Assembly: GCF_000003605.2 (NCBI RefSeq) | Contig: NW_003106598.1 | Span: 599,069-652,151, forward strand | Length of the DNA: 53,083 bases | Direction: 5' to 3' | DNA from: Saccoglossus kowalevskii | Taxonomy: Eukaryota; Hemichordata; Enteropneusta; Harrimaniidae | Shown: positions 13,949 to 50,200 of the stretch, one piece after another | Position numbering within the stretch: position 1 is the stretch's first letter | How the letters are laid out: every line of letters begins with the position of its first letter | Program-made: the position numbers and the translations under genes | Notes under the pieces: generated by a model | The model's input: the letters and a program-made list of their open reading frames with translations, nothing else | Databases searched by the model: none | What the model was told of the DNA's origin: nothing

Positions 13949-16900
13949 TTACATCTCACTGCTAGTAGCGGCATTGCTGAACTCTGTTGTCTCGACGAGC
14001 GCGAGAGTATCGTTGCCCCTAGAGGGCGCCACTTGCGATCTCTTTGATGCCTTTGTTGATGTTGGCGATGGCTCACCGGGACTGATCTTTGACAATTTTT
14101 GTAGCCTTAGATGCAGGTACACTTGTACCAGGGAGATGACGATGATGATGAAAAGAGCACAGCCAAGCAATCCAATCAAAGTATTTACAAGTTCATCATC
14201 TATTAAAATAAATAAATAAACAAACAAATAAATAAATGGAAGGACAGAGGAAAGAGCGAATGAATGAATGAATGAATGAATGAATGAATGAATGAATGAA
14301 TGAATGAGCGTAAAACGACCAAATAAATGAATAATTAATTAGTAAAAAAAAAATGCTTAGCGCCAGTCACGTGTATGTGTTTGGTAGATATAACGACTGA
14401 AAACCAGGTAAAGGAAGTCCCATTGACGTACCCTGAATAACAATGGTTGTGAAGTTTCCAGGTGTGGGGGTGATTGGTGGACCATCGTACAGACCTGAAA
14501 TCAAGAAGGCAAATATATAGATTAAAGGCGTTATGTAACATTTTAGATTCAACAATTTAAAAGACTCGTTTTGATGGATGCATTTGCGAAGATAACAATA
14601 ACCACGTTCAGTTGGTACCACTGCTGCGACAATAATCATGTGATGAGTAATCTGGGCCACACGGAATCTAGGTAATCTGGAACTACTTGTGTATTATACT
14701 TGTTTCAACGCCACTTATCTACTTATGCACAGTCAGTGTATGAATGTCATACCATAATATCTTGCACCACAGTCGGAGCAGTCGGTTCCGTAGTAACAGA
14801 AGGCTTCAAAAGAAGCAAGTCCGCCATCTTGACACATTCCATCATTCGATAAAACACAGGTGTTGTCACAAAGTCTCTCTGAAATAAAATTCGAATGTCG
14901 TATTATACTAATCAAACATATCCAAATATTTGTTTGATCATTTTATTTTAGAGAATAGTCAAACAAAAACAAATGTTTGTGGTGAATAAACTTGAAATAT
15001 ATTCAGGCACTGTGTATAGGAGTCACAGCTTTGTAACACCACATCAAGTTTTAAGTAAATTTTAAAACTCCCACATGGTTGATATGCAAATTAGTTAATT
15101 AATATTCACCGAGTTATCATGGATGACACCTGGAACGTATAAAACGTTGTTTAACAGCAAGTAAGTACCGAGGTCAATCTTTAGAATTAAAAATATCATA
15201 TTATAAACGTGTTCTCAAACATAACATAACTTTGGAGCTTATTAATATACGCTTATTTTCAGTGAGATTCAAGACATATTTTTACATTTAGGTTATGTTG
15301 ACCTGCTTTCCATTCTTCAATTTATTCAACGAATTGACGTGATACGCGCCGAGTTATTTTTTAATCATTGGATCAATGCTTTTTCGAACTTGACGAACAA
15401 ATCTTGCAAAGATGTCAAGATTCGCCAATTAAAGCATGATGGAAGGATCCATTGTGCAAAGTTTTACTTGTCTGGTGTAGTATTTGTGAGGGCGTAAACC
15501 GTTACCGGGGTGAAGGGGGCTAACATAAATTGTATATGACGTCGACCAATCAACCAATCTACGAATCATCGACAGAGTCTCTGTATGAATTGTCTGTGAC
15601 CCGTTCTGTGGTAAATAAGACGACGATGCGTTCGCCGAATTCGAATACGCGGTGCGCGACTACCACTGCCCTTCAATTTCGAAAAAAGGTGACCATTGTT
15701 TAGCGACAGTTACGCGTCCCTGTATCGACTCTTCCAACGTGTCAGAGTAAGAACGAGTCCCGAGGCAAAACTGATGATATCCACCCATGTATCTAACCCT
15801 CTCGTAACAATCCTTTGTTTCCATCCCCAGACAAATAATTCTTTTAGTTGTATGGGCTCCAGCTGACCCCTGCCACAAATATATAAGCATTCCATTTAGC
15901 CGGGTAACGACTCGCTATTTCTCGTGACGTAGAATTAAAACATTGGTTTTGCCTTCATCTCGTATCGCTTTTCGACACTTGACTGGTGACATTTCATCTG
16001 ACGCAATAAAGCCAACTGTAAGCCGAATTACTATGCATGCATTGATAGTCAACGTTCAATGCCACAAATTAAAACAAGAAGATTCCGTACGTACCGTCTC
16101 CATAGAAGAGCCTGGCTCCACAGTCTTCGCAGTCAGTTCCGAAAAAACAGTAGCTAGTGTTGGCGCCTGGTCCACCATCGTCACACACTCCATCTCTGAT
16201 GAAATCCCCGCAGTTGTTTTTACAATAAGCTTCGGGAAAGAAATATGGAAAGGTAAATTGATTATGTTCGTCAAACAGTTTTGTATTCACTTTTTTTTTC
16301 TGTGAACCTTCTCGTTGAATGAACTATATGTGAAAACAGCGCGTTTTAAACTAAGAAAAATACCCCTTTCTAAGACAATAAATTGTCACACATTTCCCAT
16401 GTGTGTACTCTTTCAAAATCAGCCTGCATAAGAGGTGAGTAAACTGTACAACCAGAGTGGGTCATTCTTCTAGAACGTACGTGTTTAACTTTTGATCAAA
16501 ATGTAGGAAATTATAATATTCAAATTATTGAGACTTACGGAGGGATGTGTTAAAGTTGTCCCGAGGACCACACTCTAAGCAGTCCGTGCCATAGGCACAC
16601 AGTGGATCGTCCCCCTGGTCCTCGCATTCGAGCGTTTCGGTGAACATGCAAGTATTCCAGCACGCATCTGTAAATCAATAATTCGTCTTGTTACCTAGCA
16701 ATTATCTGACTGATCGTTCGATGGTGTAAATTGTTAGCTTTTGGAATGAACAATGCGCATGCGCATGGAAGTAAGGGGAATATATTTTAATCAGTGAACT
16801 CACAACGTCAACTACAACTTACAATGGCATAAATGGACGGAATTGATTTGGTGTAATTAGATAAGTTTAATATATGTGACAAAGCACTAAGTGCATTCCT

Positions 16901-19900
16901 TCTATCGCAAAGTGTGCTTTAAAATATACATCATAAACGCTTTGGTCTTTCTACAGCTCGTGACAAATCGTATCCAACAGAATTCTTAAATCGAAATAAA
17001 AAAAAACTATTCGAGTAAAATTGTGTTGGCGTTTTCAGGGCAGGATAGTGTCAGAGATCTAATTTCTTTCATGATCTGTGGCCAAACTAACTGATTTTTA
17101 TCATTATTTACAGAGTCCACGGTGCTCAACAGAAGGTGTATAAAGTACGCAATACTATGCACTGTGACTGGCCATACTTACAATAAAGATGCTTACATTA
17201 CACACGTTTAGGGCCCTAGTTTTTTTTTCTTTTGAAAATTAAAGCTTTTGTTTTTAAGCGCATGATCTTCATTTTGTCTGTATCAAAGATATGTAGGCAA
17301 TATCTCAATTTGTTGGTTGGTTACTTTGGGGTAATTTTGTTATTTTTAATTATTCACAAATAAAAATTGCGAATAATATTTGGCAAATTTTCTAAAAAAT
17401 ACGGTGCTATATTACATAACAGAAATTTGTTTACTATTACCATGATGATTCTTTATTCTAATTTTAGAACATAATAACTCGAAAGGAACATAATTATGCG
17501 ATTTATGATAAACTTAATTTAATTTAATTCAATTCAATTCAATTCAAGAGGAAATGCCGATTGTGCGCTGTTCGCTCTAGATGTAAGTTCGCGATGTGTT
17601 CTCCTTATTGAACTGTCTACCACATCACAAAAAAACCGCCCACCTGTACGCTCCAGCGTGGCTTCTATTAGACAACCGGTCTTTCCTAAAAGAATGCCTA
17701 ATAACCGAAATTATTGCATGCCGAGCTTCATAAGTTTTGCAATCCGTCATCGTACTACCGGGCTGGGAACATTAAACCCAATCCGCCGGGTACGCTGCGT
17801 GCGTCCAATTAACTGAGTTGGGTTGCGCGTTCTCAGCGTGGAATATGCAAAGAAAAAGTGTCACAGATTCAAAACAATGAATATTTTATAGTTCTGATTC
17901 CCGCTGATAACATCGTTTTGGAGAACGAGAGAGTTGAGATTGTGTATAACATTCCAACGCATCAGTTAGAAGAAGGAACTCAAGTAAATTAATTGATTGT
18001 GTGTCGTAGTAAGGAGTTAACATTATTATAATCAATACCGTGAAAGTTGCTTGAAGGCATCAAATATGCGTGTAAATTGGTCAGTAATCTAGCAAATCGA
18101 TCACGAGGGAAACCCCAAATAGTTTTAAAATCAAAGTTATTCCGCCTAATCGTGTTATTGTCGCCGCGGAATGTGCCGTTAAGCCTACATATTAAACCGC
18201 GGTGAACAGACTCAATATTCTGGTGGTTCGCAGTAAATACTAGACACTTACATCCTGGAAAGGGTTCGCGTGGTCCGCAATCCGTGCAATCGGTTCCGTA
18301 TTTACATTCGTAGCCCGGGGCGTCAAATCCTCCATCGTAACACTGACTGTCGCCAGCGTAATCGCATATATCAGTACACAGCACTACAAAAAATATAGTC
18401 GCATATATTAGTACACAGCCATTACAAACAAAAACATAACAATACCAGTCAATATATTTGCGGGATTCTACGTCACATGCACTTTACCAAATACTCCATT
18501 TTTAAAATGCACCGTAACAGTTTGAAACCATTGTAGTTATTTGATATGGGCAAACCTAAAAAAAAATATTTTAATTCGTCAGGAGTCACTTTTCGGGCGA
18601 ATCCATGGTAATGTAGCGGGATTCAAAGCACTGGAGAATTAAATTCAATACAAAAAGACGAATCCGGCAAAAGTTGAAAATTGCGACCAGTAAGTGCACC
18701 ACCATAAGTGGAACTAGTAAGTGAAGCATTGTGTTCGACGGTTCTTTTGAGCACCATGTGAACTGTTGCCAGAGTTGGTATTATCTTCCACAGAATAATG
18801 TTATAAATGGTATTGTTATATGTTATAGCAACCAAGGGAAACACTACATATACGTACTATCAACGTCGGTATCCCTGGCACCACAGTCAGTACAATCAGT
18901 ACCATAATCACATTTAGCCGTCGTTGCATTGGTCACCCCATCATCGCACTCGGAATCTCCACTGTATTCACACTCATCTGTGCAAATCACTACAACGAGA
19001 ATGACATTACTTTACTTATTTTACTTTATTTTTTTTACGTTACGTCACGTTACGTTACGTTACAATATTGTAGGGTCTACGAACAACCCACAGTACAATT
19101 AACACAATATCAGGGAACATTCCAAATTATTTTACTTTGTTTTGCTTTACGTTACGTCACGTTATGTCACGTTACGTTGCGTTGCGTTACAGTATTGTAG
19201 GTCAACGATTTGATAACTTAACCCACAGTACAATTAACACAACATCACGGAACATTCCAAATTATTTAACTTTATTTTGCTTTTCGTTACGTTACGTTAC
19301 AATATTGTATTGTCTACGATTTGATAACTTAACCCACAGTACAATAAACACAACATCACGGAACATTCCAAATTATTCGCGGGGGTGTCCAATTAAGACG
19401 CCCAGCTATGTATTTCGATAACAACAGTTATGCGCGATTTGTCAAAATGTGACAAAGGGAAGTCTTTTTGTTACACCTCATGCTGAGTTGAATTAGTCTT
19501 TGACTGGTACATTTCGAGTGTCAACAAAACACTGGCAACCGTGTGACTTCTATGTTCTGTATTTGTCGTCGATACAAGTACTTTGACACCATACATGTTA
19601 GCATGGCCACGGGATCAACAGTGTCATCGTCGACGCTAATTTTGAGAACTACCTCTATTTAGGTTCCAATCCCGCAACAAATAAGTCGAATTATTTTACT
19701 CTGTCTTTCGCTTTCGTTTTAAATATTGAAGTCAGTATATCGATCGATGCGCCATTACGTAGACCACTAGCAGGTATTCAGTGCTCTCTAATTGTCGCAT
19801 ACCTTCCGATGTTTGACTTACACATTCGCGACAAATCAACCCAGAAAAATCCACGCCAGATTATAATCCAAATACTTTAAATTTAACTCGATTGCTGTGT

Positions 19901-20408
19901 GACATTCGGATACCGGTTTCCTACATTTTAAACTTCAACTTGACATAATCGTTTGCACTCATATCATCATTACATCAATTCTATTCGGGGCTGAAATCTG
20001 TACCGCTCACTAACAGAGACACTGTCCTTCAGATTAAGTATGTTATAATGGTCAACACACAGGTGACATACACTCCCTATGTTTGTTCAATCTAACGTGT
20101 TTAAACCGTTCAGTTGAAAAAAAAGAGTCAACTGTTTGAAATAAAAGACTCGTGCCAAGGTTATGTCATTATGATTGTACACAGTATTAGGTACACTCTA
20201 TATGTCACAATGCTGTTTAAATGTACGAAGTTTCTAATTGTATTTCAATTACGGCCGGTGAAGAAATGAAATTCAGGTCTCCAACAGGTGACGCAAGAGT
20301 ATGAAAAAGAATCGTGAAAAAAAAATCAGGCTTACCTGTCGATTTCGCTAAAGTGCAGAGCATCAGGGAGATCAGTGCAATGTTATAAATCAATCTCGTG
20401 GGTTCCAT
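13949..20408 (-). CDS. Gene 3: type I membrane protein with five C6-GTDC modules (346 aa)
   Basis: Eight coding exons on the minus strand: 20408-20336, 18989-18858, 18383-18252, 16667-16539, 16229-16095, 14878-14753, 14494-14432, 14199-13949 (1041 bases, exact frame, every intron phase 1). Residues 1-24 are a signal peptide (MEPTRLIYNIALISLMLCTL...). Modules occupy 25-68, 69-112, 113-155, 156-200 and 201-242, each one exon with six cysteines, G-T-D-C and C-G-(A/P)-R. Module 1 has the sequon N-A-T; module 3 has a short third loop (8 instead of 11 residues) and E replacing D in the usual D-C-G; module 4 has an 8-residue second loop. A Pro/Thr linker with N-F-T (243-263) precedes the helix (~267-291, LIGLLGCALFIIIVISLV). 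The ~55-residue tail is Ser/Thr/Pro- and Lys-rich, longer than in genes 5 and 6, with no motif I recognise. Modules 1, 3, 4 and 5 match modules 1-4 of genes 5 and 6; module 2 is extra. Ligand and role unknown. Confidence 0.9.
14205..14307. repeat. Tetranucleotide microsatellites next to gene 3 last exon
   Basis: An (AAAT/AAAC)n stretch (about 14205-14237) is followed by (TGAA)n (about 14258-14307). It lies in the last intron, directly before the acceptor of the membrane exon, so in the gene sense it supplies a TTTA-rich pyrimidine-like tract. Confidence 0.85.
15663..15890 (-). other. Coding-like open stretch inside gene 3 intron
   Basis: On the minus strand an open frame of 76 codons lies in the intron between modules 4 and 5 of gene 3; an overlapping frame is also open for 61 codons. 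Composition is mixed rather than low-complexity, with several Tyr, Gly, Arg and Trp. There is no GT/AG pair with the phase needed for inclusion in gene 3, and no domain recognised. It may be a transposon or processed-gene fragment, or chance. Confidence 0.2.
19022..19378. repeat. Tandem repeat, three diverged copies, GTTAC-rich
   Basis: Three copies of a unit of about 111-135 bases lie in intron 1 of gene 3. Each has a (GTTAC)n-like block, then AATATTGTA, CCCACAGTACAATTAACACA and GGAACATTCCAAATTATT. The CAGTAC anchor falls near 19091, 19226 and 19337. The open frame that runs through it on the plus strand is itself repetitive and not a gene. Confidence 0.8.
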
Positions 20409-23400
20409 ACTGCAGCACTTTGTTATCTGAGTACTGACTCAAATCCTCTACACCCACTAGGTTTGCGACTAGACCTTCTATTTGTACTTGACTCCCACAG
20501 TGACGTAGTGGCCGATTAGTGTGTAGGGCTCATCTAGTTGTACATATTGGTGCGATATTTGTGTGTTGCCTCCACGTTTTCTCATAACCAAGGCAATACA
20601 GAACAACAACGGAGCTTTGTTTCAATATCCTTCTTATTCTCATCTCAAAGAATCGAACAGGCGCATAGCTTCCAGTCTCAGTCATCCGTGATTATTGTGG
20701 AATTAGGACCCGGGCGAGCAGTTTCACTATGGTAATATCCATTGCTGCACACGTTGAATGCAGACTCGTTCTTTCACTTATATCTCCCGATCAGAACGAT
20801 TTTTGCCCCCAAACTGCGATGAATCTCTTTATCATATCTGAGAGAACATGTGAACATAGCTACACATGTAGTGATTATGATATTATATTACGCATGTACC
20901 GTACCAAAGTTCTCATTTCAAGTTGTTAGCATAATGATGCTACAAACCACTTGCGATTGGTATGTGATCCATTTACATTCCATCCCAAGCTGTATTGTAT
21001 ACTCTCGACTTAACATTCGAGTTGACAGAAACGGCAAGGTAGACACTTATGTGGTACAAAATACACAACGTGTATCAAACTTTTGAATAGTTCTCACGAC
21101 AACAACAACATGTTGTTATACACTGTGAATCGCAGTGCCGATGATATACTAGTAAATGTAAAACAAGTTCGTAGATGTGCCTTTAAGGATTTAGGAATTT
21201 CATAAACGCGATAACCCGGAGACTGTAAACGAGGAATTAAATATCTATGTCGCCCACCTATTGTAAAATATTCATGAGGCATTTATAATTTGTTGATATG
21301 AAACTTTAAAATATGTGATGATATGAACACATAACCGATACACTACACAAATATGTGTAGTACATTACATGGTTGGAACCAGTAGCGGGAGTTATAAATG
21401 TAATACCATTATGACAGCAAACATATGTCACTTTCTATAGCTCAGTTCAGAAAGACCAGACAGTTGCTGTTAATTGTGTTTTTGTTGTTGTTTTTTACTT
21501 ATTTTTTTATGTGTGACGAATTTTGTCTTCCATAGGGGTTAATAAATATTATTAATATTTGAACGTTTGCATCAAATACTTAGCACAACGTGTGACTTTT
21601 GTAATTACATACAACCAATCTTAAGATGATTTAACACAACACTATAGCATAGCTACGGTGATATATCGAGGCGAAGTCATCAACACAATGTAATATAGTG
21701 GACAGAAAATTTGGAATTTGGGCTACAATGATCTCACCCGCGTAACATTACTTCCTGTCCACCTAGGTTCAAAATATGCACAATAAGACGGAGAATGCTT
21801 TCAATTCGGCAGCAGTGTACCAGTACTCAAACATTTCTGTAAATCCTTGAATGATGTAATCTTTAATTTTCTTGTGTTGATTTGTTCAAATACAGGTACG
21901 ACTTCCGCGACTGTTGATGCGATATGACAGCCTTGATAGGCCTGACAATACCTATATACTATAATCCCATGCAGCGAGGTATGATCACACACCGCTGTAG
22001 AAATGTATGTGTACTTATTAATATAACCGAGTTGTTTTCTATGGCGGTGTTGACACAGTGAAAATGGGAGCCCCTCCCACTAACACAGTCGTAGAACAAG
22101 ATCGCTACAACGTAATGTATATTTCAAGGTCGTATCTATAATACATACAACTATTTGCCTAGCATTGTCATATTTCTCATACTGTATCAAAACATTATCT
22201 GAGGTGTCGGGCATTCATAGTTCGCTATCGGTGTGGATATGCACGGAAAAACTACCAATGTTGGTTACATGGATTGGAATAAAGATGGCACGCATGAGTT
22301 ATCAAACTTGTATAAAGAGAGAGACAGAAATCAGTGGCTTCACTCGGGAGAATGAAATGAGCATGACCACTTTGACAATTTAAAAACGAGCCCACCAACA
22401 ATGAGCGTAAGTAACCGATACGCTAATTGTTATTTCGACCAATCCGCTGAACTTGGAAAAGGATAATAGAGACACCTACATGATTAAACTGTAGGAGTTA
22501 CTCGCCATGCATCGAGGTTTGTATCCTTTCAGCCTGGTCGACATTTTTTACCAATAATTAATTAACATATGAGTCATAGTATCCTTGAAATTGTTGTCAA
22601 GTTTCCGCCTCCGGGAGATGCCATAATACTCGTGAATTGTAACAATATAGATCGACGACAATGGGAGAAGCAGGTGTTCACTGCTTTGTCTTTTAGGCGA
22701 TAGTGGACAAGAGTGTCGTTCTTATATTCTTTTAATAAAAAAATCCACAAGGAAATGAAATACTGAAAGGAAAGTTGAAAAACCCAACCAGAAATTGTTG
22801 AACACAAGTGATATAGGGATATTTAGTCTAAGAAAACAAAACAAATGATTAACTTCGACTCGCATACTAGTGGAATTGAAACCGCTCAGATACATAAAAT
22901 AACGATATTTTGATTGAACCCCTTGTCGTTTCTTATTATTTTTTCGATACCTGAGAACACATAATATATATATGCACAATTTCATTACGAATAAAGGCCG
23001 TTCTACACGAGAAATTCATTAGCTAACGCATCAAGCAACACAATAGGTAACTCGACGGCAATGACGGTTAAAACGAGACAACTAATTGTGACGATTGGCG
23101 ACCAGTTGACGATCCATCTTGGCGACGCGATAAAGGCGGGGCTTCGCATGGGTCAACAGGTGTATTGCTTGGTTCGTTGACTCAAGAATTTTCCGGTTTC
23201 TATGATATAATCGCGTCAGGTAACATCGTCCAAAAACCGCAATGTCGAGTTTTCCGGCAACTTGTCTCCCGTCACCACAGTTAGTGCACCTGTTATTATT
23301 ACCGCGTTGTGTTATGCAATGCACGGTGCGTTGTTTTAAGATTCCCCCTTTGTAAAATTATCTATGTGCGCTACGTACTGACACTAAACATGCACTACAC

Positions 23401-24197
23401 ATGAACAGCAAGAAAAAAAAAGTTATACGGCTCTCCATACACAGTAAATGATAAAACATTCAACCCTATAGCAAGACAAAGTTGTACAAGCGGTGTGTCA
23501 TTGGCGTGTTTAATAAGCAATCTTGACTGAAACGTACACGAGAAGCGGGGTTCCTAAATAAGCGAGCTTGGGACAAAAAAAACGCAACGTGTGTGTATTG
23601 GGCTATGATTTCACGATACGCTAAGCGACACGGTTATGACAAACTATTGTGACAACTAACAGTGCTATACTTAGACTAAAAAACTGTGCAACTACTGGTC
23701 TTAATTGTTGCATGCGCCGTTATCTCTTCGATGGCAACTATTGTGTAACTGTACAGGGTGCTTCTATCAACGCCAATCCAACGCCGAGATTAGCTGATTC
23801 TTAAGAACACCGCACTTGTTGTTGTATGCAAATCGATTTGATTCTGAAATTAAACAAACAAAACAGTTACGTAACTTAAATCAAGCAATAACAACCATTT
23901 TATACGCCCGTTATTGTTTTCTGTCATCGTCAATCTATTATAAATGCGCAAGTTAAAACAAAAATTTAGAATATAAAAGTAATAAATGACATGTGGTCGC
24001 ATTGTCGTCTATATTACATCACTAACATCGATATAACATCAATATACGGCGTATGCCCAGGGTAAGTGTGTGGAATCGTTATATACCATATACGGGGTAG
24101 TTACGAGGGGTTGTTTTATGCCACATACGGGGTATGCTTTGAGTACTTATTTTTATTGCTAACTTACCATCGCTTACTCCCCAATTTTGATCAGAGA
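20409..24197. other. Intergenic between gene 3 and gene 4
   Basis: No supported gene. Open frames here are short, overlap one another and lack domains. 22995-23330 is unusually GC-rich for its surroundings and ends in a GGCCGTTCTACACGAG-like string, listed separately as a possible element. 21475-21560 is T-rich. Confidence 0.4.
22995..23330. mobile_element. Possible DNA-transposon-derived segment
   Basis: The segment opens AAGGCCGTTCTACACGAGAA and continues into GC-rich sequence with an 80-codon open frame on the minus strand (23082-23324). The GGCCGTTCTACACG terminus resembles ends of MITE-type elements in invertebrate genomes, from memory. I could not find a matching inverted terminus, so the boundaries and class are uncertain. 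Confidence 0.25.
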
Positions 24198-30680: not shown

Positions 30681-30723
30681 AAGAAACAGCTGTTAATATA
30701 ATTAACAAAATCACGGAATACAT
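30681..30723 (-). CDS. Candidate signal-peptide exon, unassigned
   Basis: On the minus strand ATG at 30723 opens a hydrophobic stretch (MYSVILLIILTAVS) and reaches TCTT|GTGAGAG, a good donor in phase 1, the phase used by every assembled signal exon except gene 1. It lies 1.4 kb upstream of the first exon of gene 4 on the same strand. It could be an alternative first exon for gene 4 (joining would give Cys at the junction) or chance. Confidence 0.25.
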
Positions 30724-36592: not shown

Positions 36593-36894
36593 CTTTTCCA
36601 CCTGTTTAATCTAATACATTATAAATTACGCTGAAACATTCACACAATTTACTCTAGTACTGTGTGACCCTTAAAGTAATGTTGTCTCACCTACAACAGT
36701 TGAATAGTTATTTTTGAGTCACGGTGACACTTGTTGGTTACTTGGTTAACAAATTCCTCTTCTGACAGGGCGAATAGCAGAAAGATGTCGTCTTGTGTTG
36801 TAAGCAGTGGACACACCCGTCGCCATTTTGTATACAAGTTCCTAAGCGTGTACGCATGCAATGTGACGCGACATTGCGACAATAAAATTCCCTG

Positions 36895-37300
36895 ATATAT
36901 TCAAGTTCCAACAAAATTAGGTTACACCATGTGCAGTTGATGGCGTAATTCTATTTGAGATCACGTGATCAATCATTGCACAGAATCTGTAACGACTATG
37001 TGATGAAATCAACATATATGATATGATATCTAGCGGTGGTAAGCGCCATTGGGGCAGAACAGCATCCACACTTGCAATTGTCACTGAAAGTAAATATAAT
37101 TTCACGCTGAAAATAATCCGTTCACCATAGTGATATTAGACTAGCGAGAACTAATTACAATTATTCTCCTTGACCAGTATGAATACATCATTGACTGAGT
37201 CACTCACATCGCTTGAATTAATGATTCATTTCTGCCACATTGAGCATGTTCACAGTTTTCCTTGAACTCTAGTCCAAATCACTAAGTCACCCCAAGACAC
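36895..37300 (-). repeat. Inverted repeat, right arm
   Basis: This is the reverse-complement partner of 34955-35345; the spacer between arms is about 1.55 kb. The equivalent open frame is at 37105-36917 on the minus strand. A TTTACTTTCAG string precedes GACAATTGCAAGTG in both arms, resembling a splice acceptor. It may be a transposon-derived fold-back pair or two inserted copies of one repeat. Confidence 0.8.
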
Positions 37301-37420
37301 ACAAAATAAGTATAACTTCGTAAAAGCTAGAATTTCAATAAATGTTTTACTAAACTGAAATAATATAAGCGCCTCATCATGACGTTAATGTTAATTACAG
37401 TTTTTTTGGGTTAACTATTC

Positions 37421-37552
37421 TATATACAACGTTAAGCAAAGGAAAGATGTGTTTGTATCACATCTATATACAACGTTAAGCAAAGGAAAGATGTGTTTGT
37501 ATCACATCTATATACAACGTTAAGCAAAGGAAAGATGTGTTTGTATCACATT
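37421..37552. repeat. 44-base minisatellite, three copies
   Basis: The unit starting TATATACAACGTTAAGCAAA repeats at 37421, 37465 and 37509, near-identical. It lies about 500 bases upstream of the gene 5 start codon. Confidence 0.95.
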
Positions 37553-38061
37553 CGAACATTGATTTGTTTTGTCAGCGAGTGTTGGCGGCTGGGTTATTAT
37601 TGACCACGCCGTTCGTTGGTGTTGATTGACGTGATATCTTATACGCTATATATGACAGCTGACATTGTTCGAGATTGTTTGAAAACTTGTGGGCATTTTT
37701 TTTAAATTGATAAGACAGAGTTTTAAGAACCTCTACTCGTGGATCAGTGGTCACTTTTTGCGCGTGATCAAGTTGGTATCCATGACAACGTGCGGATGTG
37801 TGCGTGGAATGCTTTATCACCGCCAATCTCAATAGACTTCTTAATTAGAGGTGGGGTGGAAGATACCGTCCATACTAATGGCAACGTGACTCTGCCACAG
37901 GTGTGTTGTTCATTACAATAATCATGTACATTTTAATTAGATATGCCCGGTATAAGATTATTGAAACCAGACATATCTATCAGTAAACCGGCGGGTATTG
38001 CTTGATGACTATACACACACAAATTGACACCCAGTTACGGAACCACACTTCTAGTAAGATC

Positions 38062-41000
38062 ATGGCAAACACATCATCGACAACGCTACTTATAATTACT
38101 TTACTCACTTTCTTTCCAGTTCCAGGAGTTTTCGGAGAGGGTGAGTAAAACAAAATTTAAAAATCTTTTAATCAATATTCCTATACCTGTTTTCGTCGAC
38201 ACAATGCAATGAAAATGATTATTCTTAGACACATGTTTTGCCTGTCTCTACTATCACGTGTGATACCCAAATTGTAACGGTATTCATGTTTTGTTATGCA
38301 TATTTCAGTCAAAGCTGTCGTACTCTCGATTTTGTTTCGCTGTATAAACTTGTTTTCCTGTTATTTAGCATTGGTATGATTCGGTAATTGCGTTCAAGTT
38401 GTTTACAATTGAAACCAACACTGTTGTGGATATAATTCTGTTTATATAGTTTATTGATTTAGTTTTTAATTATATTGTATATACTTGTCTATAAATGTTG
38501 TTAAATTCAGTTTCATTAAAATCGCATTCAAAATTTGCTCAAACCACTACAGTTTTATAAAACTTAACCGACGCGTATTTCTATCAAACTTTTCCATACA
38601 AAAAAAATGAAAGTGCCTTTATTTTACTCAGCTCTTTCTCGCACTCGATTTAATTTCAGATTTATGTACGGACGATTGTGATACTTCTTTTAATGTCTAC
38701 TGTGAAGACGGTGCGACCAATGCCACGTCAGCTACGTGTGAATACGGGACAGACTGTTATGACTGCGGTCTCCGTGAAGCTGAGCCAGAACGTAAGTGTG
38801 TATACCTGCTCAACTTCGTGCAGTAGTGCGTGTAGAAATTCTCAGGGTGTATAATTACCATCATGCTCTGCGATATCCGTAAAAGGGTTTTCGGGTCGCG
38901 GGCGCATATGCACATGTGGCAACTAAAATAAATCCCTTGTTAAACGGTATCAATCTAACTATTCTAATAATGTCCCACAGATACTTTCAGTGTTTCAGGG
39001 TTTCAGTGTTTTGATAACTTGATTAAACAAAATTAACTCTGTCAACTACTAAGTATATGAGACCAGCTGTTATATTTTACCGTTTTTTGACGAATTATTA
39101 ATGCCGAATGTGTATCCATAATTATAATTTCAGCGAATGTGTCCACTTTCTGTCGATTTTAGTTGGATCCAAGTGAATGACATCACTGTGAGTTTCGTCG
39201 GTCGTACTGACGTTTAAAAACACGTATGAGACTGTCTCAGGTTATTGCGTTTTATATTACGTAATCAGAAAATTTGGCGCGATACACAATGATCTTCGTG
39301 TTTTTTTTTAAAGTAATTTCATGACGTGTCAGGCGTATAGATGCACACAGGTGCTATCATCGTGTTTATGCGTGCATGTCGCTATGTGTAGGTGTACCTG
39401 TCATCGTGATTGAGTGTAGACGTCATCGTAAGCATGTGTATATGGCATAATGAATAGGAGTACATGTCACATTTAAATTGTAAACGGTGATACACACCAT
39501 GTAAGGATAAATATTATAAGGCAGTTCCCGGAAAACGTCAAAATAAATGTAATTTACAATGGGCGTACTCTGCGTACATGACGTGGAAAAACACAAGAAT
39601 ACGCCGGAAACCGTTCACGTAATGATCGGTTACCCAGCTGTATATGTTGTTTCAGTTTCAACGTAAATTGGCGTATATTTTTGCATTTACGTTTCTTCCG
39701 TCCAACTTAATCAACGGTTATTTAAAAGTATACGTTATAAACGTTGAACGGAAATCTGCGGTTTTTCAGAAATTACCGTTTATTTACGTTGGACTGAATG
39801 GACGACAAACGTAGCATTTCCGGCTGACGGTTAAGCGACGGATATGCCGCACCCATAGTCCGACGGTTCCGCGACGGTTACGCGGCGGATTTACTGCATA
39901 ACCGCCATGTAATCGTTGTGTAACCGTACCGAAAACACGCGATTTCATGCCGTGCATGTATATGTGTACATGTCATCATGTATATGTGTACATGTCATCA
40001 TGATTTGCTGCACCTGTGATGTGTACCTGTCACTGTGTGTGAGTATAAGCACATGGCATTGCGTGTCATCGCCTGCGTTACTGGCGAATCTCGACCGGGA
40101 TCTAGGCAAGGGACTTTACGGGTTGATGAAGAGGTTTAACTTCTGGCTTCATGTTAAACTTTCACTTTAGTTCTTACATTTCATGTGATTATTTGGTTAT
40201 TATTTCTTTACAAATAATGAAATACATTATGTTGTATGTATCAATTCCATCGAAAATTAAATTTACTACAAAATATAATATAAATATATTGTGAATTAAG
40301 AATATGTATGTGTATTTAAATATCTGCTGCACTGGGATGTATCCAAAGTGTACATATTGATGGTGAATATAAGATTCCGATATTCTGACACTTCAGCATT
40401 GCTTAGATATACTAGTATTATAAATTAGACTGGAAATACATAATAATTGCTGAAATATTTTATTGCTTTTAATGAATAAAAATTGATATAATTGTGTTGT
40501 GTTGTTTCAAAACAATATGATCTTCACGCTATTATAATTCTGTAAAATATTTATTTTGTATTTCCTTCTCATAGTGTCGTGTTGGAATACATGTATATAT
40601 ACGGACGATGGGTCATGTGATGACAGTGGCGCCGATTCTGATTATAGTGAATGCGCCTACGGTACTGACTGCTTTGACTGTGGTCCGCGGCCTGATGTCG
40701 AACAACGTAAGTTGTATAAAAGTTAAATTTTCAGCTTTGCGAGATCTCGCGTGATTTGGACAAATGACGCGGTTGCAGATACTGTACAATTTAAAAGAGG
40801 TACATGTATTCTAGAGCGGTTATCTATTTAGCATTACATCATTATTGGTAGTAAGCAGTCGTGATGGCAGCACTCCTTGTATTGACCAGAACTCCAAACA
40901 GTTTGATACGTGCTACTTAAAGTGCCTGTGAAATGGCTGCTATTTTAACGCCAAAAATTAGCCATTGATATATAAATATCACTAATTTTTATGTTTCTAA

Positions 41001-43812
41001 GCATGAATTATTTTTTTAAGTGAAAAAATGAGTTTTAAACTCAGTCTACGGCAACTTTATTTTTGTGTATTTTAAAACGAGGCTCCTCATTAGCTTCTCA
41101 TTTGCATACATAAATTCCTCTTGTGACGTCAGAAGGGGAAGTCGCATGGCAGCTTGCATTGTCGATACGTGTAAATAAGGCAAATTTCTTGTACAGTTTT
41201 CTCATTTTTGACTAAATTGTCACTTATGTACTTGTTCGTCGAGGAAGAATGGACCATAATGAACACATAGTATCAATTTTTGTTGCATGGGGTTGAGTTA
41301 GATGCGAAATATGTCCGTTCTGGTGTAGCTGGTCACCGTGATCGTCTCCGACACCGGCGCACGTTTGTACACTGTCGCTGGACAAAATAGAATTTGACGT
41401 CGGAATTATCTCGTTATCCCGCACAAGACCGAACAAAGATGCGACTTTGACTGTTGCGCAGACGTCACTAAGCTTCAATTACGTATTACAAGGCAGTTTT
41501 GCACACGACTCGCACATTCGAATATGTTCGAACTAAACTCCCGACTGGTTATTAATAAAGTTTCTTCGGTAAACGTCTTTTCGCTTCATGCAGTAGTATC
41601 TCTGCCATCCCACGGACAGACTTCAATTTTGTTATTTGTTCAAATGCAAAATTATATGTAGTTTTAGATTCTGCATTATATTTTGAGAACAAACACGTTA
41701 TTTGTTTTGCAGCGTCGTGCTTCGATACATGTTCATACGCAAATGACGATTCATGTGACGACGGTGGTCCGAATGCTGATTATGCGGTCTGTTTTTATGG
41801 TACTGACTGCGAAGACTGTGGCACCAGAGACCATGTGTTTCAACGTAAGTTTACGAATAATTAAAAGTAACTTTAAAATTGGCCTGCTAACTGGGAGCTA
41901 GTGCTGAGTTGGAGATAGTTAAAGGGTGGTTGTCGTCGCGCCGAGTCCTGTTCGATATGGGACTTATATCGACGTATACAACGCGTGTAAAATACATTGT
42001 TTATTTACATGAAATTCGAACACGCACTGCGCGACGACCACCGCGCTTCAAACATTCATTAATAATTGCTCGAATATACTAGTAGTCAACACGACTTCCC
42101 TATTACTTGCACCCTCTAGTGGCGAACCACGAATTGATTTGTTCTGCAGTCGTCAGTAAATATGTTTCAAAGTTTTGCTCTAAATAATTAACGAATGATA
42201 AAACATCAAACACAATTTTTGTTTCAAACGACATTGTTGTCACTCGTGTACGTCATTATTACGTCACGGAATTGCTTCGCAGTAACAATTTGTAAATGTT
42301 CGTTGAATATTCAGGACAATTTTGTCACAGATCCCGGCGATTTGGCAAGTTGATTGTTTTTCCCATGTCATCAAGTATCAAGTTATATTCAACACAGATG
42401 TCATTCAAATTGTTTCAATGATTTTATACGTCAAACTAGTATTCATGAACGCAAAAAGAAACAATTCCGAATACTGCCCCTTTTTATATCTTCAGAAAAA
42501 AAAAGACCCAGTATGTAGCACGTACACTTTCATTGCATTCTACGAACAGTCACAAGATATCATAACGGTATTACGAAAATCGTTACAGAATTTATAATAT
42601 TGTTGTTATTCCCACGTCGTCAACAGCTACTTTGTGTACGGAGACGTGTGTAGGGAGTGATAATGGATTATGTGAAGATGGTGGACTATTTAGCTTCTCA
42701 GCCGAGTGTTTCCTGGGAACAGACTGTACTGATTGTGGGATACGAGGAGGTGAGTATATATGACATGACGTGACATGACACACATAATACAACATGTTTA
42801 TCGTTGCCTCATTAAATTATATATGTTAGCGTTGATTTTCAAAACTTGTATGATTGGACACTGAACGTTGTATTGTACTTTGTGTGTTTGTTTTGTTTGT
42901 TTGATTGTTAAATCATACAATGACCATTTTTCAGTGCTACCGAAATTACCAACGTCACTGGGTCTGGATCCAACAATGGGAACACCAACGTCGACCTTGT
43001 CTGATAATACAACGATGCTGGCTGATGGTGAGTGGGCTTTAAGTCAAAGCCGTAGTTTTTGTCGGTATTTATAGTCGAATAACTAGATTTGTAGTATTTT
43101 CTGGTAGATAAACAAAGCTCATTTGCAAATGGTTGCCAAGATCTCACCAAGAGCGAGAATCGCGCGATTTGCTCTTCCAACAAAGCCGTCACCGCGTCTA
43201 CTGTTCTTTTGACCTATGTAACCATGATATTTAGAAAAGTGGACGCAAGGGTGGTAAAATGGCACACTATTTGGGGACAAAACAACTCGAAGTCGCGTGG
43301 CTCTCTCGCCAGCAACGAGATTTCGACGGCCGTTTACGAATGAAGTCGTCATTACAAAGGATTGAGGAAACCATTGGAAAACAGTTCACGCCACTATTTA
43401 TTAGCTACCGAGTTACGAATAGCTCAGGTACAGTCAGAATCAGGAAATATAGCGTGTACGAAATGTTGAATCATTGATTTTCGATTCACTGACAAGCTGC
43501 TGTATTATGCCAAGTTATACGACGGGGCGACTCATGTAACACAATGAGTGGTTTAGGTCTCTTTAATGTCACAATAACGACTTTGGTATCACACGGTTCC
43601 GTACTATGTGAGTCCGGTACGTTCAGGTATTCCAACACTAACTGAAAACTGCATTAATTTGTATTTCAGATGAAGATTTGCCCATGGTGACCATCGGAGT
43701 TAGTGTTGGATGTGGTTCCCTCATACTTGTATTAATGGTGGTAATCGTGGTCCTCTGCGTCAAGCGGCACAACAATTTTACTAATGGTGTCCTACCAACG
43801 CGCTTGGAATAA
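38062..43812 (+). CDS. Gene 5: type I membrane protein with four C6-GTDC modules (277 aa)
   Basis: Seven coding exons: 38062-38140, 38660-38791, 40575-40706, 41713-41844, 42627-42749, 42935-43027, 43670-43812 (834 bases, exact frame, all introns phase 1). Residues 1-26 are a signal peptide (MANTSSTTLLIITLLTFFPV...). Modules at 27-70, 71-114, 115-158 and 159-199 each have six cysteines and an intact G-T-D-C. Module 1 carries N-A-T; module 2 opens S-C-W-N-T-C; module 4 ends I-R-G and has a shortened exon (123 bases). A Pro/Thr/Ser linker with N-T-T (200-230) leads to the helix (~236-260, VTIGVSVGCGSLILVLMVVI) and a 17-residue tail beginning V-K-R-H-N-N. Acceptors and donors (GTAAGT or GTGAGT) are strong throughout. 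It is the closest relative of gene 6, module for module, and converges with it. An extracellular recognition or adhesion role is inferred from layout only. Confidence 0.92.
39680..39820. repeat. Imperfect hairpin repeat in gene 5 intron 2
   Basis: TTACGTTTCTTCCGTCCAAC near 39690 is loosely inverted by GTTGGACTGAATGGACGACA near 39799, within a CG-richer segment (39550-39930) that also repeats (C/G)GACGGTT(A/C) strings. It is probably part of a DNA-element remnant; class unknown. Confidence 0.4.
41919..42053. mobile_element. MITE, TTAAAG family, copy in gene 5 intron
   Basis: It starts TTAAAGGGTGGTTGTCGTCG and ends with the inverted match GCGACGACCACCGCGCTTCAAA, about 135 bases. It lies between module exons 3 and 4 of gene 5. 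Its interior matches the 1593-1721 element when reversed. Confidence 0.75.
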
Positions 43813-43813
43813 A
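43808..43813 (+). promoter_or_regulatory. AATAAA overlapping the gene 5 stop codon
   Basis: The last codons GAA TAA followed by A create AATAAA over the stop. If it is the functional polyadenylation signal, the 3' untranslated region would be almost absent. Another T/A-rich region lies near 44035-44050, so this is only a candidate. Confidence 0.3.
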
Positions 43814-45383
43814 GAAATACATTTTTGTTTGAAATATTCGCATTTTGTGCACAAGAATTTGTTACGATTCTGAAACATTCTAAGTACACCGTTCATATAA
43901 CGCGCCCTCTGCCGACGTAGCGCTCTTGTCACATGACGCCGGTCAACATGAGTGTAAGCAATTTCGTTGAAATTGACAATTTTGATTGTCGTGTATTCAG
44001 TTGTCATATAGAATATAACAAAACTTTCAAAAATTGTATTATTTATTTATGAAAACAGTATCGACGCCCTAAATGGCTTCTCGTACACAAATGACGTCAC
44101 AGAGACACTATGTCGCTAGATGGAAGGTGTATTTCAAGTTTGCTTTTGTGGAAAATAGTGTTTTCGGGATAACAACAATTCTACTCACAGTAGTTTTGTT
44201 CATACGATTAAATGCTGGTTTACTGTAAAACACGCTGTATGCCGTTTTAGCGATGATTTAAATCAAAGCATGAAATAACAGAATCTTAAGTAATTTAGTT
44301 AAAGCGCCAACAATATCAAATTAGCGACATAGCGAAAATATTGATTAACTAAATTAGCTAAAATAACATGCAAAATAAAAAGACATGTTTTACATTGATT
44401 TTAAATTAAATTAAATTTAATTTGTTTATGATTTCTACAATGAAAATGATATTTTAGTCATATTGAAATTTACAGATTCATGTATACTTATTTGTATGCA
44501 CCCACTGAATGGATACTTTAGAGTTACTTGGGTTGCACTGTTCAGGTTATGTGTATCTGCGCGTTAACTGAAAATTGAAACTGACAAACTTTTCACTAAT
44601 ATCTCCAGATTAGAGACATGTACTTTATTGCATCAACAAAGTCATATAATAATATCATATCTGTTCAAACTTTCTCGTTTTCAAAACCCCGAAGGACAAA
44701 TATATACTTCAATATTATGTTGAAGATTCCCGTCCCGTAAAAGTTTGTAAACTTCTAATCTGTACATGTCCGTTTAATTTTGCGAAAGGAGATATTAAAT
44801 TAATCACTTTAATGTCTGTAATTACTTGTGTATATATCTTATACTTGCTTTATGTTTTCATTACGTCATCAATCATTTTAATTCTATTGTGTTAATATCT
44901 GTGTACGTCGAGCATGGGTCTACAGTGTGTAATACATATATTAATATTATTAGTATCCGTGGTAAAACAAACAGTGATGCGTAAAATAAAAAAAAATTTG
45001 CACAATTAATGCTCATTCAGCATTGCTTTACTTCTTTGTTAATCACGTGTTTTTACGGGTCTCGTGTGTTATTCTGTAAGTAGCGCCTGCTAGCGACAAG
45101 ATGCTTTCAAGAATAAGCTATGACGTAGATGAGGTAGTGAAAGCTGAGCCAATCGAAGCGACAACTCTGATTACATATACGTTCCTCCGATTTAGAATCG
45201 TGAAAATCTTGTAAAATATGAATCGACTGACCCGCTACTTCACAAAATTGGTAGAGGGCATGGTATAAAGTTTGATTCAAGTTACTCTTTTCTAACATGT
45301 TTTTAACATTGCATGTTGACATCAATGGCGTCATCCATTCAAGTATTCAATTGTGTTATGAAAACTGCCCGGAAAACTGAATT
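43813..45383. other. Convergent intergenic region between genes 5 and 6
   Basis: This 1.57 kb separates the stop codons of two convergent paralogs. It contains a MITE (44221-44396) and otherwise AT-rich sequence with no gene. Both 3' untranslated regions must end here. Confidence 0.6.
44221..44396. mobile_element. MITE, ACTGTAAAACACG family, copy 2
   Basis: It starts TACTGTAAAACACGCTGTAT and ends AGACATGTTTTACATTG, the inverted counterpart with two changes. Interior TTAGTTAA and TTAGCTAAAATAAC strings are shared with the copy at 27672-27849. Confidence 0.65.
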
Positions 45384-47205
45384 CTATTTCTCCAGGTCCC
45401 CAACAGTGTTTTTCAACTTGTGGTGTTTTATAAGGATCACTGCCGTGATCACAGCCATGGTGGCTACAACAGCTACGCCACCAGCGGCACTGACTCCGAT
45501 AACCACTGGTGACACGCCATCATCGTCGTCGTCTGAGGAATCGTCTGAAAAATAATCGAGATATGCTAGCTATTTTGTATGTATTAAATACAATGCTACT
45601 GGTTCGCCAAGAAAACAAGCAATGTAACGAGTCATGGAACTCGTTGATAATAGAAGGCATGAAGCCAACGTTTTGAGGGATATACATTCCATTTTTTATT
45701 TTAGCAGGAACCATGGATGACGATGGATGACCGACTCTTTTAACACTGCGGGTTGAAGGAATGTGCGACACTAGAGTGAGAGTGCACTAGGGTGCTGATT
45801 TTTCGCAATATACCGGACTAGATATTCGACCACTTTTAATCACGTAATTCAATTAGACAATGGTGAGACTCCATGTAGTCGATTAAACCAATAACAGTGT
45901 TGAACTCTACACCAAGTCTCATCGAGGGCAAGCAAATGTTTGTCTCTTCATTCTCAGGATCGTGATCTTTCTTCACAATACACGTCACCGTAAATCATGT
46001 AAATTACAGCGTGCGTAATGGACATGAATTAATAATAAAATAATTATTACCTGTCTCTTCTTCAGTCGGCGTTTCCGTGGAATACATAGGTGCGGGATAT
46101 AATTCCAGTGAAACTGAAGATAATATACAAATATATAAAATACAAATTGATGAATATATTAAAACGAATTACTAACATGTCACGGTTCAACAATACATGA
46201 ATACAAGTAATGGAATATGTTTCAGTCCCTATGAAAAAATGAAACGGAATTAACAATATACTTGGTGTATATTTAAAAACAAATTGGACAATATCGTGAA
46301 TGGATCACTATGTATTTGGGGGCCGGGAGCGGAAAGCAGGATATGAAGTTAACGTATTCCCTGCATACTACCTTTCCTACCACCCGATGCATATTATTGT
46401 AACACATTATTTCATACTCGACTGTCGTACAATAAAGTTGCATGGTTTATACCTCCCCGCACTCCACAGTCCGTGCAATCCGTCCCCAGAAAGCAGTCGA
46501 ATGAGTTGCTGAATATCCCTCCATCTTCACACGCACTGTTATTAGCCCACTCACAGGTGTCTGTGCATAAAGTTGCTGTAAAAGGTCAAAACATTTTTTC
46601 ATACATTATGTTACATGGAAATATACGCAGGGAGCTCTAAATGCATATTTTAAGCTCAAGACGATTGTGCATTTTTAATACTTGAGTACGTATGTACCTC
46701 ATATTAAAAATTGTCGTGGAAGATCTGCCTTTTACCTCAATGCTATAACAAAGTAAATTCGCATGGAGCACGTTTAAGTGCATGGTCCAGCATTATTTTT
46801 CAGGGGCGGATCTAGAATTCTGGAATAGGCGATAAGTTGGCCTAAGGCCAAGTTCGCGAGCGCCGATGGCGCGAAGCCCTGTTGGTTGTTAAAAATAGGA
46901 GGCGGCCCCCTCGGCCCCATCTAAATCCGCCAATGTTATTACTATGCACCATACATACAGGTTAATCACCTAAAATACAATACTATCCTTCTAGTATGAG
47001 ACAGTCAATGTGATCAGTCTCATGACTGGAAACTTTGCGTTTTGGCCCACTAACAGCCACTCGGGAACGATATTTCGCGATATCGGTCTCATGCGACGGA
47101 GGCCAATACACGTTGCTGTATAATAAACTCTCAAATTTGTAACATTAGATTCGGAACCAAATATACACTATAGTTATAATTTAATTAATTAATTAATTAA
47201 TTAAT

Positions 47206-47268
<63 letters not shown>

Positions 47269-50200
47269 TTCTAGATACCAACAGGTTTCCCCAATTACAA
47301 GCACTCATAAAATACAAATACAAAAATATTTACAAAAATATTATACAATAAAAAGAAACACCCAAAGATCAACTTATGGCATTTAAAACAGATGTCTTGA
47401 AAGAAGATAGACTCGTAAAAATGTCCACTGAACCAGCAATACTATAAATACAATTTCAAAAGACAAGACAACGAGGGATAAAAGAATACTTTCTGAGATT
47501 ACTGTGACAAAAGTAATTTGAAGGGATAAACGGAGCGGAGGGCTGGGTTTGTCAATTTATTTGTCATTTTTTTGCGGACTGAAGGGAGTGGGGTGGTACA
47601 TGTGTTTTGCTCCGTATACTTAAAGATGTGAAGGTCGTCGTGTAAACAACAATGAATGGATGTGTAGAGAATGTCAACTTACGTTCAAATACGTGATATC
47701 TAACACCACAATCGGAGCAATCAGTGCCGTAAAAACAGAATGCTTCGTCGGAATCCGGTCCACCATCATCACACGATCCGTCGTCTGTATAGTCACAAGT
47801 CTCGAAACAGGTTGCTAGAATATATAGAAATATATATTAAAAGGAAGTGGTCGTCTTGACGCTCGACGACAACCACCCAATAAGTCTTTCGTCGATTTTA
47901 AGTATTGACGTTTCAGAACGGTGATCGGATTACTTCGAGCTATGGTGACACTTAATTGAATCACACTCACCTTGCCCGGCATCTTCACGAGGACCGCAGT
48001 CTGAACAGTCAGTGCCGTAGGAACATTCACTAAAGTTAGCGTTGGGACCAGAATCGTCACATGACCCATCGTTTATATAAGTACAAGTATTCCAACAGGA
48101 CACTGTAAAAACAGTTATGTAAAAAACGGACATTGCTGAGAAAATTGATTAGCCAGGCGACTAATTAAGTTATTCATTGTAAATTGAGCAATATGTCAGT
48201 TAAACAACCGATTCAAGATAAACTCAACAACAACCAACTAAAGAATGTAACATTCCTTGGGATTCGAACCACCTGACTGATTAGGAGATTCAGTTGTTGT
48301 ATTTAGTTCACTTTAAAACGACGTAATTCTAGGGTACGCACGTGGAAATTATATTGTTAATTCATGTCATTTAAAATACCCTAAATTTATCCATTTTGAA
48401 ATAAACATGGCAGTATTGTCGACCAATATGTTGACTTAAAAAACGTTTAGACTCATCAAAATAAATTGAGAAAATGATGGTTATATATTTACTGTTAACG
48501 GTAGCCACTTTGTCGGCTACTAGATACCTTGCTTCCTATCATGGCGTAAATAATTTGCCATTTCTCAATTGTTTAGCTGGTCATCACATATATATATCTT
48601 GATTAATGGTGTACACTCTGGTATTAGAGTTTCATAAATCTAGATTTTAAAAAGTGATAAGAAATGCTGTGTCGCGTCGCTTCAACTTAGTGTTCTTTGA
48701 AACTGGTTTAAAAAGTGCAGTAAATTATGTTCTCGAAGTACTGTTGTACCGTAACAGGCAACATAATATTGTTGCTTATTACCAATGACGTGGTTGTACA
48801 AAATAAATCAATTTATGTCTAACTTTTCAGAAACAAATATTTTAAGAAGTTTCCTTTAGTCGCCGTAGATTTATTTGAGAAGACGGACTTCATGTAGAGG
48901 TGCCGTTCCCTGCAAATCTTAGTTGGGTAGTTTTTATGGACGTTTACAATTACTGCAAGAAAATAAGTTCCATAAAAAGTGTTAACTTCACTGCATAAAA
49001 CTGGGTTAATTTCTTTCTAATGCCGCAATGCACTTAAAAATCGCTCTTCAAAATGTTATGTCATTATAAGACATGCCAAGACATGCAATATATTATTTAC
49101 TACTCAGGTAATTTGTCGGTCGATGTTTATGAAGAATCACCATAAAAATGGTTTGTGACGAGTGCGTGGATATGAATTAAAAAAAAAAGTTCTATAATGT
49201 AGATAAGATAGCAACGATTGGTCTTCATATATGTAGAATTGTGTAAGAATTGTTTACGTCAGTACACAGGGGGCGAATTCACGCTAAACAGTGAAACCAC
49301 ACAACATGCACCTACTCATACAGTGATATATCAGTAATCAACAGTCGTTGACAACACAGTACACCTATACTTACGATCGGGACCATATTCACGAGCACCG
49401 CAGTCAGTACAGTCAGTGCCATATTCACACGTGGATGACGTAGCGTTGTCACCACCGTCATCGCAATCACCGTTAACAGCGTCCTCACAGGCATCGGTGC
49501 ACATGTCTGAAACAAAAACACCGTGTATGAAACGATATTATTGTTATGATATTACTACTGTATTTAACTTTATTTATTGTTTTTTTTATTTTTTTAATAA
49601 ATTCAAGGTGATATGGTATATTATTAAATAGGTAGGACACTAGATTTAGAGAGACGTCAAAGGGTGTGTCGTCGTCTGAGGGTCCGCTAACTGATAAATT
49701 GTGGCCGTAATTTAGTAGCAATATGATTGTGTTTCTCTACTTACGAAGAGCATGGTGTACGTGATTGACACCGTGTGAACCATGTGATGTAATATTACCG
49801 GGGGCGCCGATCTTGCGCCGATGGGTATAAAAGGTGTTATAAAACAGAAAAATGTTAAATTAAGCTTCTCATAAAACCGTTACAAAGTATCCAAGTAGTA
49901 TTAGTGAAATCTGCCTATAACGACGCCCGGGGCAAGATGTCTGTTGACGTCATCGTTTACAATAGATAAAAAACAACCGCCATACAAACGGACGCTTTGT
50001 GCCGTATGTCTATTAGGAGTGTGTGCATTCAGACGTGAATTGTTGTAACTACCGAGACCTGACACCGTAAATGTGATGCAATATATACTTTTCAATTCGG
50101 CGGTGTGCATTGTTCATTTTGTTATGGGATGTACGTATTATTCATCACAACAACAACGTCGATATTGAATACAGGGTAAGATAATTGGATAATTCATAGG

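Follow-up and report, generated by a model that had tools for sequence, protein, structure and literature searches.

A six-cysteine module without a family name in predicted surface proteins of Saccoglossus kowalevskii and in bacteria

The small disulphide-rich beads of animal surface proteins, such as the LDL-receptor class A and EGF-like modules, are often encoded by class 1-1 exons. The LIN-12/Notch repeat (LNR, PF00066) binds one Ca2+ and has its cysteines paired 1-5, 2-4 and 3-6. Here we describe a Cys-rich module, C6-GTDC, that is encoded thirteen times in a stretch of 53,083 nucleotides of the acorn worm Saccoglossus kowalevskii (contig NW_003106598.1), referred to below as the window. 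The thirteen copies are distributed over three genes, designated A, B and C. C6-GTDC is a real module family that has no name; it is of a known general kind, the small extracellular Cys-rich beads, and has an unexpected bacterial half.

The module and the families it resembles

An earlier sequence-only reading of the window had described thirteen module exons in three genes, and a six-frame scan for the GTDC..CG signature recovered them all (4 on the forward and 9 on the reverse strand), with the limits given then, 14753 and 49506, coinciding with the outer module-exon boundaries derived here. The copies follow the pattern C-x3-C-x7/8-C-x8/11-C-x2-GTDC-x2-CGxR and are 34-38 residues long. When aligned, 13/13 copies keep the six Cys, G-T-D-C and C-G-x-R without exception. 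The distance from the first Cys to the Arg is 37 residues in 11 copies, 34 in one and 38 in one; correspondingly, the Cys spacing is 3-7-11-5-2 in 11/13, the two others having a short loop 3 (8 residues) or a long loop 2 (8 residues). The acidity that had been noted is also borne out, with a mean of about 7 net negative charges per module. In the wider family the GTDC string is variable, as GSDC, GDDC, GEDC and ATDC are present in the same genome.

A profile search of the six-frame translated window returned 13 matches at E <= 4.1e-13 and the next at E 0.91, indicating that there is no fourteenth copy. The profile consisted of 83 rows that included the 13 window copies, so the high scores of these copies are by construction. 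None of 20 first-order Markov versions of the window produced a profile match at E <= 0.01.

The sequence-only reading had been unable to name the module and proposed a profile search against known families. In the libraries searched, Pfam and NCBIfam, no such family appeared. The 13 window members matched two Pfam families at E <= 10, with one member each and a best E of 1.4, and the 83 members at E <= 1 had a best match to a CCCH zinc finger (E 0.076); none of these passed the cut-offs. A 4-module protein matched zf_CCCH_4 best (E 0.0078, 16.7 bits versus a cut-off of 29), and the full spliced A, B and C proteins gave no match above cut-off, the best being gene A to Mid2 (E 0.067, 13.4 bits versus 23.2). 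The Pfam search of translated stretches covered window positions 1-20000 (reverse), 37001-44000 (forward) and 44001-53083 (reverse). The module had no match in NCBIfam. Against PDB sequences, alignment A1 gave three weak matches, the best at E 0.27, and alignment A3 none at E <= 10. A literature search by motif strings and one keyword set found no description of such a module family.

LDL-receptor class A, EGF-like and similar Cys-rich calcium modules have their own spacing and signature, and there was no Pfam match of LDL-receptor class A or EGF-like to the module or to the three proteins. The sequence-only reading had suggested calcium binding like that of the LNR, with a different spacing. 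Kinship with the LNR would make the module a diverged LNR with the same calcium-binding disulphide fold and one Cys moved. Both are extracellular, acidic units of about 35 residues that contain six Cys and open with C-x3-C, followed by a central D-G-x-C-D and by G-x-D-C towards the end, and the acorn-worm genome contains genuine LNRs whose strings resemble the module by eye. The profile comparisons did not sustain this kinship. PF00066 was matched by 0/13 window members at E <= 10 and was absent among the families matched by the 83 members at E <= 1. Alignment of profiles with hhalign gave the LNR a probability of 2.5% for A3 (E 0.019) and 3.3% for A1 (E 0.013), over 14-18 columns only, and when the LNR columns were shuffled with the invariant Cys columns fixed, 14/100 shuffles scored as well as the real LNR profile, which is thin (3 rows). 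The third and fourth Cys are separated by 11 residues in 12/13 window copies and by 8 in one, compared with x3 in the genome's own LNRs. The module is also without the LNR fourth Cys, its sixth Cys lying instead in DC-x-D-C-G-x-R, and differs further in its bacterial occurrence. A diverged LNR is thus an unlikely description of the module.

The Pfam near-misses pointed in another direction. Most are to zinc-binding families, with zf-CCCH found for 3/83 members, zf_CCCH_4 for 2/83 and two others for one each, and the zf_CCCH_4 match of the 4-module protein is of the same type. The Cys residues might accordingly be zinc ligands of the zinc-ribbon or CCCH-finger type, in proteins that are not extracellular. 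These matches are all under cut-off, and the two that have scores lie far under the curated values; moreover, A, B and C each have a predicted signal peptide and transmembrane (TM) helix, and the bacterial carriers look exported, and in such places disulphides are to be expected. The zinc finger was therefore rejected, and zinc binding by the Cys residues would come as a considerable surprise.

Copies in the acorn-worm genome and in bacteria

In the 572-Mb genome (4830 contigs) there are 83 candidate module places at E <= 1 and 64 at E <= 0.001, on 17 contigs; these counts are lower bounds, although some of the weakest places (E up to 0.93) could be chance matches. The places occur in clusters, with 19 on the contig of the window and 17 on contig C3290. 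The view that each module has its own exon holds in the window (13/13) but probably not genome-wide, as three other loci have 2-4 modules per open frame. Among the animal loci read, modules are mostly alone in their frame, and several share one open frame on C594 (4), C223 (3) and C2350 (2+2, one of them degenerate). These multi-module copies, L015, L021 and L027 with 3, 4 and 2+2 modules per open frame, respectively, are unlike the one-module exons of the window.

Two gene pairs were compared for selection. Genes A and B showed a nonsynonymous divergence (dN) of 0.21 with saturated synonymous divergence (dS) over four modules, and the tandem paralogues L114 and L115 on C3290 showed a dN of 0.03 and a dS of 0.14. 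By these estimates the inverted pair formed by A and B is old and the pair of L114 and L115 is younger, and the thirteen exons code for a selectively constrained module of 34-38 residues. Module, stalk and TM exons are conserved in frame between L114 and L115, a comparison that also returned other-frame matches over the same DNA and one weaker flanking match.

These rates bear on the possibility that the family is an innate-immune receptor set of the acorn worm under diversifying selection, like the expanded receptor sets of other invertebrates. The 64-83 clustered copies, the tandem and inverted duplicates and the predicted surface topology would all suit such a set, and PMC10855680 describes expanded SRCR-type surface receptors, which are likewise a large Cys-rich receptor family of invertebrates but are built from a different, named domain. 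Both gene pairs compared are, on the other hand, under purifying selection in their modules, and no signalling tail was recognised. A diversifying immune set therefore seems rather doubtful to us, though less so than a diverged LNR.

The module is also bacterial, which the sequence-only reading had not foreseen. That reading mentioned similar strings in predicted proteins of marine protists, which would make the distribution striking; the striking distribution found here is in bacteria. Contigs of GTDB were scanned for G[TS]DCxDCGxR and relatives were confirmed with tblastn; 255 stretches matched the pattern, 152 were confirmed and 79 loci were kept. By their record titles the carriers belong to Myxococcota or Deltaproteobacteria, Phycisphaerae, Flavobacteriales, Hyphomonadaceae and others. 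Alignment A3 uses 70 of the 79 loci, the nine left out being partial matches, duplicates or near-duplicates, and L099. Since the search pattern fixes the module end in the bacterial rows, the sole independent evidence comes from the columns outside it, and there the first four Cys and Asp-17 are identical in 70/70 bacterial and 13/13 window rows. The same five residues are kept in the matched modules of the nine omitted loci, the first Cys of L044 lying just before the matched stretch.

The search succeeds in both directions, from the animal alignment to bacteria and from a bacterial module to the animal genome. As a lone query, the 37-residue bacterial module of L038 recovers 66 copies in the animal genome at E <= 0.001, including 11/13 window copies, with the best 78% identical. 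When 39 distinct 37-residue animal modules from 32 loci were compared with 105 bacterial modules, the nearest bacterial module was identical at 22-29 of 37 positions. The likeness could in principle reflect convergence of a simple Cys/Asp/Gly-rich repeat, as the module is short and no other Pfam domain is common to the animal genes and the ten bacterial carriers scanned. Identity of up to 29/37, the same spacing and the same final G-x-R, and the retrieval of 66 copies from 572 Mb by a single bacterial module all speak against it, making convergence highly unlikely and favouring homology.

Ten carrier genomes contained 1-12 module copies each. In the phylum of Lujinxingia (Deltaproteobacteria, Bradymonadales; taken as GTDB Myxococcota because the L035 genome, a Myxococcales by its title, is also in the sample), 44/282 sampled genomes, including the one on which the sample was centred, had the module at E <= 0.001 and 43/282 at E <= 1e-6. 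In evenly drawn samples from the phyla of the Phycisphaerae, Flavobacteriales and Hyphomonadaceae carriers, judged at the stricter limit of E <= 1e-6 only, the module was found in 1/199, 1/198 and 1/200 genomes, respectively, in each case the centre genome and hence by construction.

The N-termini of the bacterial carriers suggest export, and many may be lipoproteins: a hydrophobic stretch near a possible start was found in 72/72 complete frames and a lipobox-like motif in 49/72, using a simple, generous script with no control set. Frames of 63-72 residues (L062, L103 and L056) hold little beyond an export signal and one module, which argues that the module folds alone. In 17/72 complete frames the protein ends exactly with the last residue of the module, its final Arg, like a C-terminal tag (for example L035, L041 and L100). 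In Flavobacteriales (L056 and L062), two small frames lie side by side, each with a hydrophobic N-terminus, lipoprotein-like by eye, and one module. In Hyphomonadaceae (L045 and L108), the module lies close to the end of a membrane protein; the protein of L045 has matches to DUF418 and HGSNAT_cat, and the N-terminus of L108 is similar.

Pfam matches over cut-off in the ten chosen carriers include a papain-like protease, C-type lectin, VWA, GSDH, Stig1, DUF4215, Cu-binding_MopE, DUF418 and a T9SS-associated domain; a metalloprotease match in L051 is under cut-off, and L103 has no Pfam match. The exported Cys-rich or metal-binding repeats DUF4215, Stig1 and Cu-binding_MopE thus occur in some of the same bacterial proteins as the module, but they are separate Pfam models and none was reported over the module. 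Spread by viruses, phages or plasmids was rejected: 16 viral stretches matched the pattern and 0 were confirmed, phages gave 0 matches, and the one weak plasmid match (E 0.5, 37.5% identity over 51% of the query) was taken as chance.

Gene models and surroundings

The description of three genes was confirmed by complete models for all of them: A encodes 277 residues (38062-43812, forward), B 271 (45384-52114, reverse) and C 346 (13949-20408, reverse). All 13 module exons are AG/GT-flanked and of class 1-1. In the three models, 19/19 introns have GT-AG borders and lie in phase 1, and the only stop of each model is the terminal one. A, B and C share a layout of predicted signal peptide, 4-5 modules, stalk, one TM helix and short tail (Table 1). 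Start exons were sought as an ATG that is followed by a hydrophobic core and by a donor in phase 1. B had two such candidates, and A, C, L115 and, weakly, L114 had a single one. Hydropathy places a TM exon behind each window gene, with the additional hydrophobic frames for A and B given in Table 1. The spliced proteins thus have the predicted signal peptide, ectodomain, single TM helix and cytoplasmic tail of type I single-pass membrane proteins, where signal peptides, helices and topology are predictions from hydropathy only and the orientation is inferred; A, B and C are probably single-pass cell-surface proteins.

Table 1 Predicted exons of genes A, B and C in the window, in the order of each gene.
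Feature	Position	Strand	Basis
Gene A exon 1, start codon and signal peptide (MANTSSTTLLIITLLTFFPVPGVFGE), phase-1 donor	38062..38140	+	Sole candidate in 33501-38660; prediction
Gene A C6-GTDC module 1	38660..38791	+	Signature scan, profile match, splice sites
Gene A C6-GTDC module 2	40575..40706	+	Signature scan, profile match, splice sites
Gene A C6-GTDC module 3	41713..41844	+	Signature scan, profile match, splice sites
Gene A C6-GTDC module 4	42627..42749	+	Signature scan, profile match, splice sites
Gene A Ser/Thr/Pro-rich stalk exon	42935..43027	+	Splice sites, frame
Gene A TM helix, tail of ~17 residues, stop	43670..43812	+	Hydropathy 3.10, splice site, frame; one more hydrophobic frame downstream
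Gene B exon 1, signal peptide (MNILLSTLVVLIALSISTTGIMPL)	52042..52114	-	Better of two candidates; prediction
Gene B C6-GTDC module 1	49375..49506	-	Signature scan, profile match, splice sites
Gene B C6-GTDC module 2	47971..48102	-	Signature scan, profile match, splice sites
Gene B C6-GTDC module 3	47683..47814	-	Signature scan, profile match, splice sites
Gene B C6-GTDC module 4	46453..46575	-	Signature scan, profile match, splice sites
Gene B stalk exon	46051..46113	-	Splice sites, frame
Gene B TM helix, tail of ~14 residues, stop	45384..45544	-	Hydropathy 2.47, splice site, frame; two other hydrophobic frames in the scanned stretch
Gene C exon 1, signal peptide (MEPTRLIYNIALISLMLCTLAKST)	20336..20408	-	Sole candidate in 18989-24000; prediction
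Gene C C6-GTDC module 1	18858..18989	-	Signature scan, profile match, splice sites
Gene C C6-GTDC module 2	18252..18383	-	Signature scan, profile match, splice sites
Gene C C6-GTDC module 3, short loop 3, 34 residues	16539..16667	-	Signature scan, profile match, splice sites
Gene C C6-GTDC module 4, long loop 2, 38 residues	16095..16229	-	Signature scan, profile match, splice sites
Gene C C6-GTDC module 5	14753..14878	-	Signature scan, profile match, splice sites
Gene C stalk exon	14432..14494	-	Splice sites, frame
Gene C TM helix, tail of 50-60 residues, stop	13949..14199	-	Hydropathy 2.88, splice site, frame

Elsewhere in the window, one or more neighbouring genes at 517-9395 on the reverse strand encode several domains of the EGF_CA/FXa_inhibition type alongside a Mucin2_WxxW domain; at 517-801, a hydrophobic stretch with KKK behind it may mark this neighbour as another single-pass surface protein. 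A reverse-strand frame of 100 residues at 25332-25634, rich in Gly, Ser and Tyr, may be one exon of a protein of low complexity. The 625 N at 26754-27378, located between genes C and A, represent an assembly gap or a masked stretch. Two similar frames, at 35108-35326 (forward) and 36917-37135 (reverse), are identical at 48/73 positions, lie in opposite orientation about 1.6 kb apart and are perhaps the inverted repeat of a transposable element.

The mitochondrial contig of the same genome was also read. TGA encodes Trp, AAA Lys and, in one case, AGA Ser, and AGG is absent from COX1, ND1 and COX2. The 19 ATA codons of COX1 and COX2, compared by eye with the aligned mammal residues, correspond to Ile (10), Val (5), Leu (2) and Met (2); code table 5, in which ATA is Met, was ruled out, with Met at 2/19 and Ile at 10/19 of these codons. 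Next to ND1, COX1 has the inverted orientation, and the tRNA-Lys predicted by ARAGORN has the anticodon TTT. PMC3121625 describes the S. kowalevskii mitochondrion with AUA as Ile, AAA as Lys, AGA as Ser, AGG missing, a tRNA-Lys with UUU and an inverted COX1, and PMC2697986 gives ATA as Ile in common to echinoderms and hemichordates and AAA as Lys in Saccoglossus. The code and gene order thus point to a Saccoglossus-type acorn worm, and a priapulid origin, which had been considered, was rejected on the strength of this fit.

Function, history and significance of the module

On balance, sequence comparison leads us to favour the view that C6-GTDC is an unnamed, disulphide-rich, possibly calcium-binding extracellular binding module of surface proteins, and that its bacterial and animal copies are homologous. 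Each module would then be an independently folding bead with three disulphides. A metal, most likely Ca2+, might be held by conserved Asp residues; Ca2+ is suggested by these residues together with the strong acidity. A row of such beads on a stalk could present a binding surface outside the cell, to be used in adhesion or in the recognition of a carbohydrate or microbial partner, and phase 1-1 exons combined with tandem duplication would let the family grow.

Several observations weigh against this view of the module. In A3 numbering, Asp-12 is kept in only 8/13 window copies and Asp-16 in 7/13, which makes a metal site in the strict sense less convincing. The GTDCxDCGxR end is largely imposed on the bacterial rows by the search pattern, and tblastn favours similar sequences. 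Locus L099 deviates: it has CDPR where CGPR is expected, and its second module lacks Cys 1 and 2. The hydropathy and lipobox tests were uncontrolled. On the animal side, the signal-peptide scan is ambiguous for B, given its two candidates, and weak for L114, and no signalling motif was recognised in the tails of A, B and C. When phases were counted automatically for 40 exon entries from 32 loci, 24 came out as class 1-1 and the others as unresolved or different; as this script is crude, phases are claimed for the checked window genes only. Finally, 37 residues per module give too little sequence for a firm tree that would fix the history of the family.

With homologous copies in animals and bacteria, the module either passed from one domain of life to another or must be very old. 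Tentatively, we consider it possible that it moved between bacteria, above all the Myxococcota group, and marine eukaryotes, that it reached the acorn-worm lineage in the form of an open frame with several modules, and that it was later split into phase 1-1 exons and amplified to some 80 modules of surface proteins.

The C6-GTDC family is thus a conserved extracellular module that is present in many bacterial genomes and expanded in one animal, yet is without a Pfam or NCBIfam match in the copies searched, and one profile would annotate it wherever it is present. If it is a binding module, it would offer a test case for surface use in bacteria and animals. Its patchy distribution also allows a direct test of transfer between domains of life.

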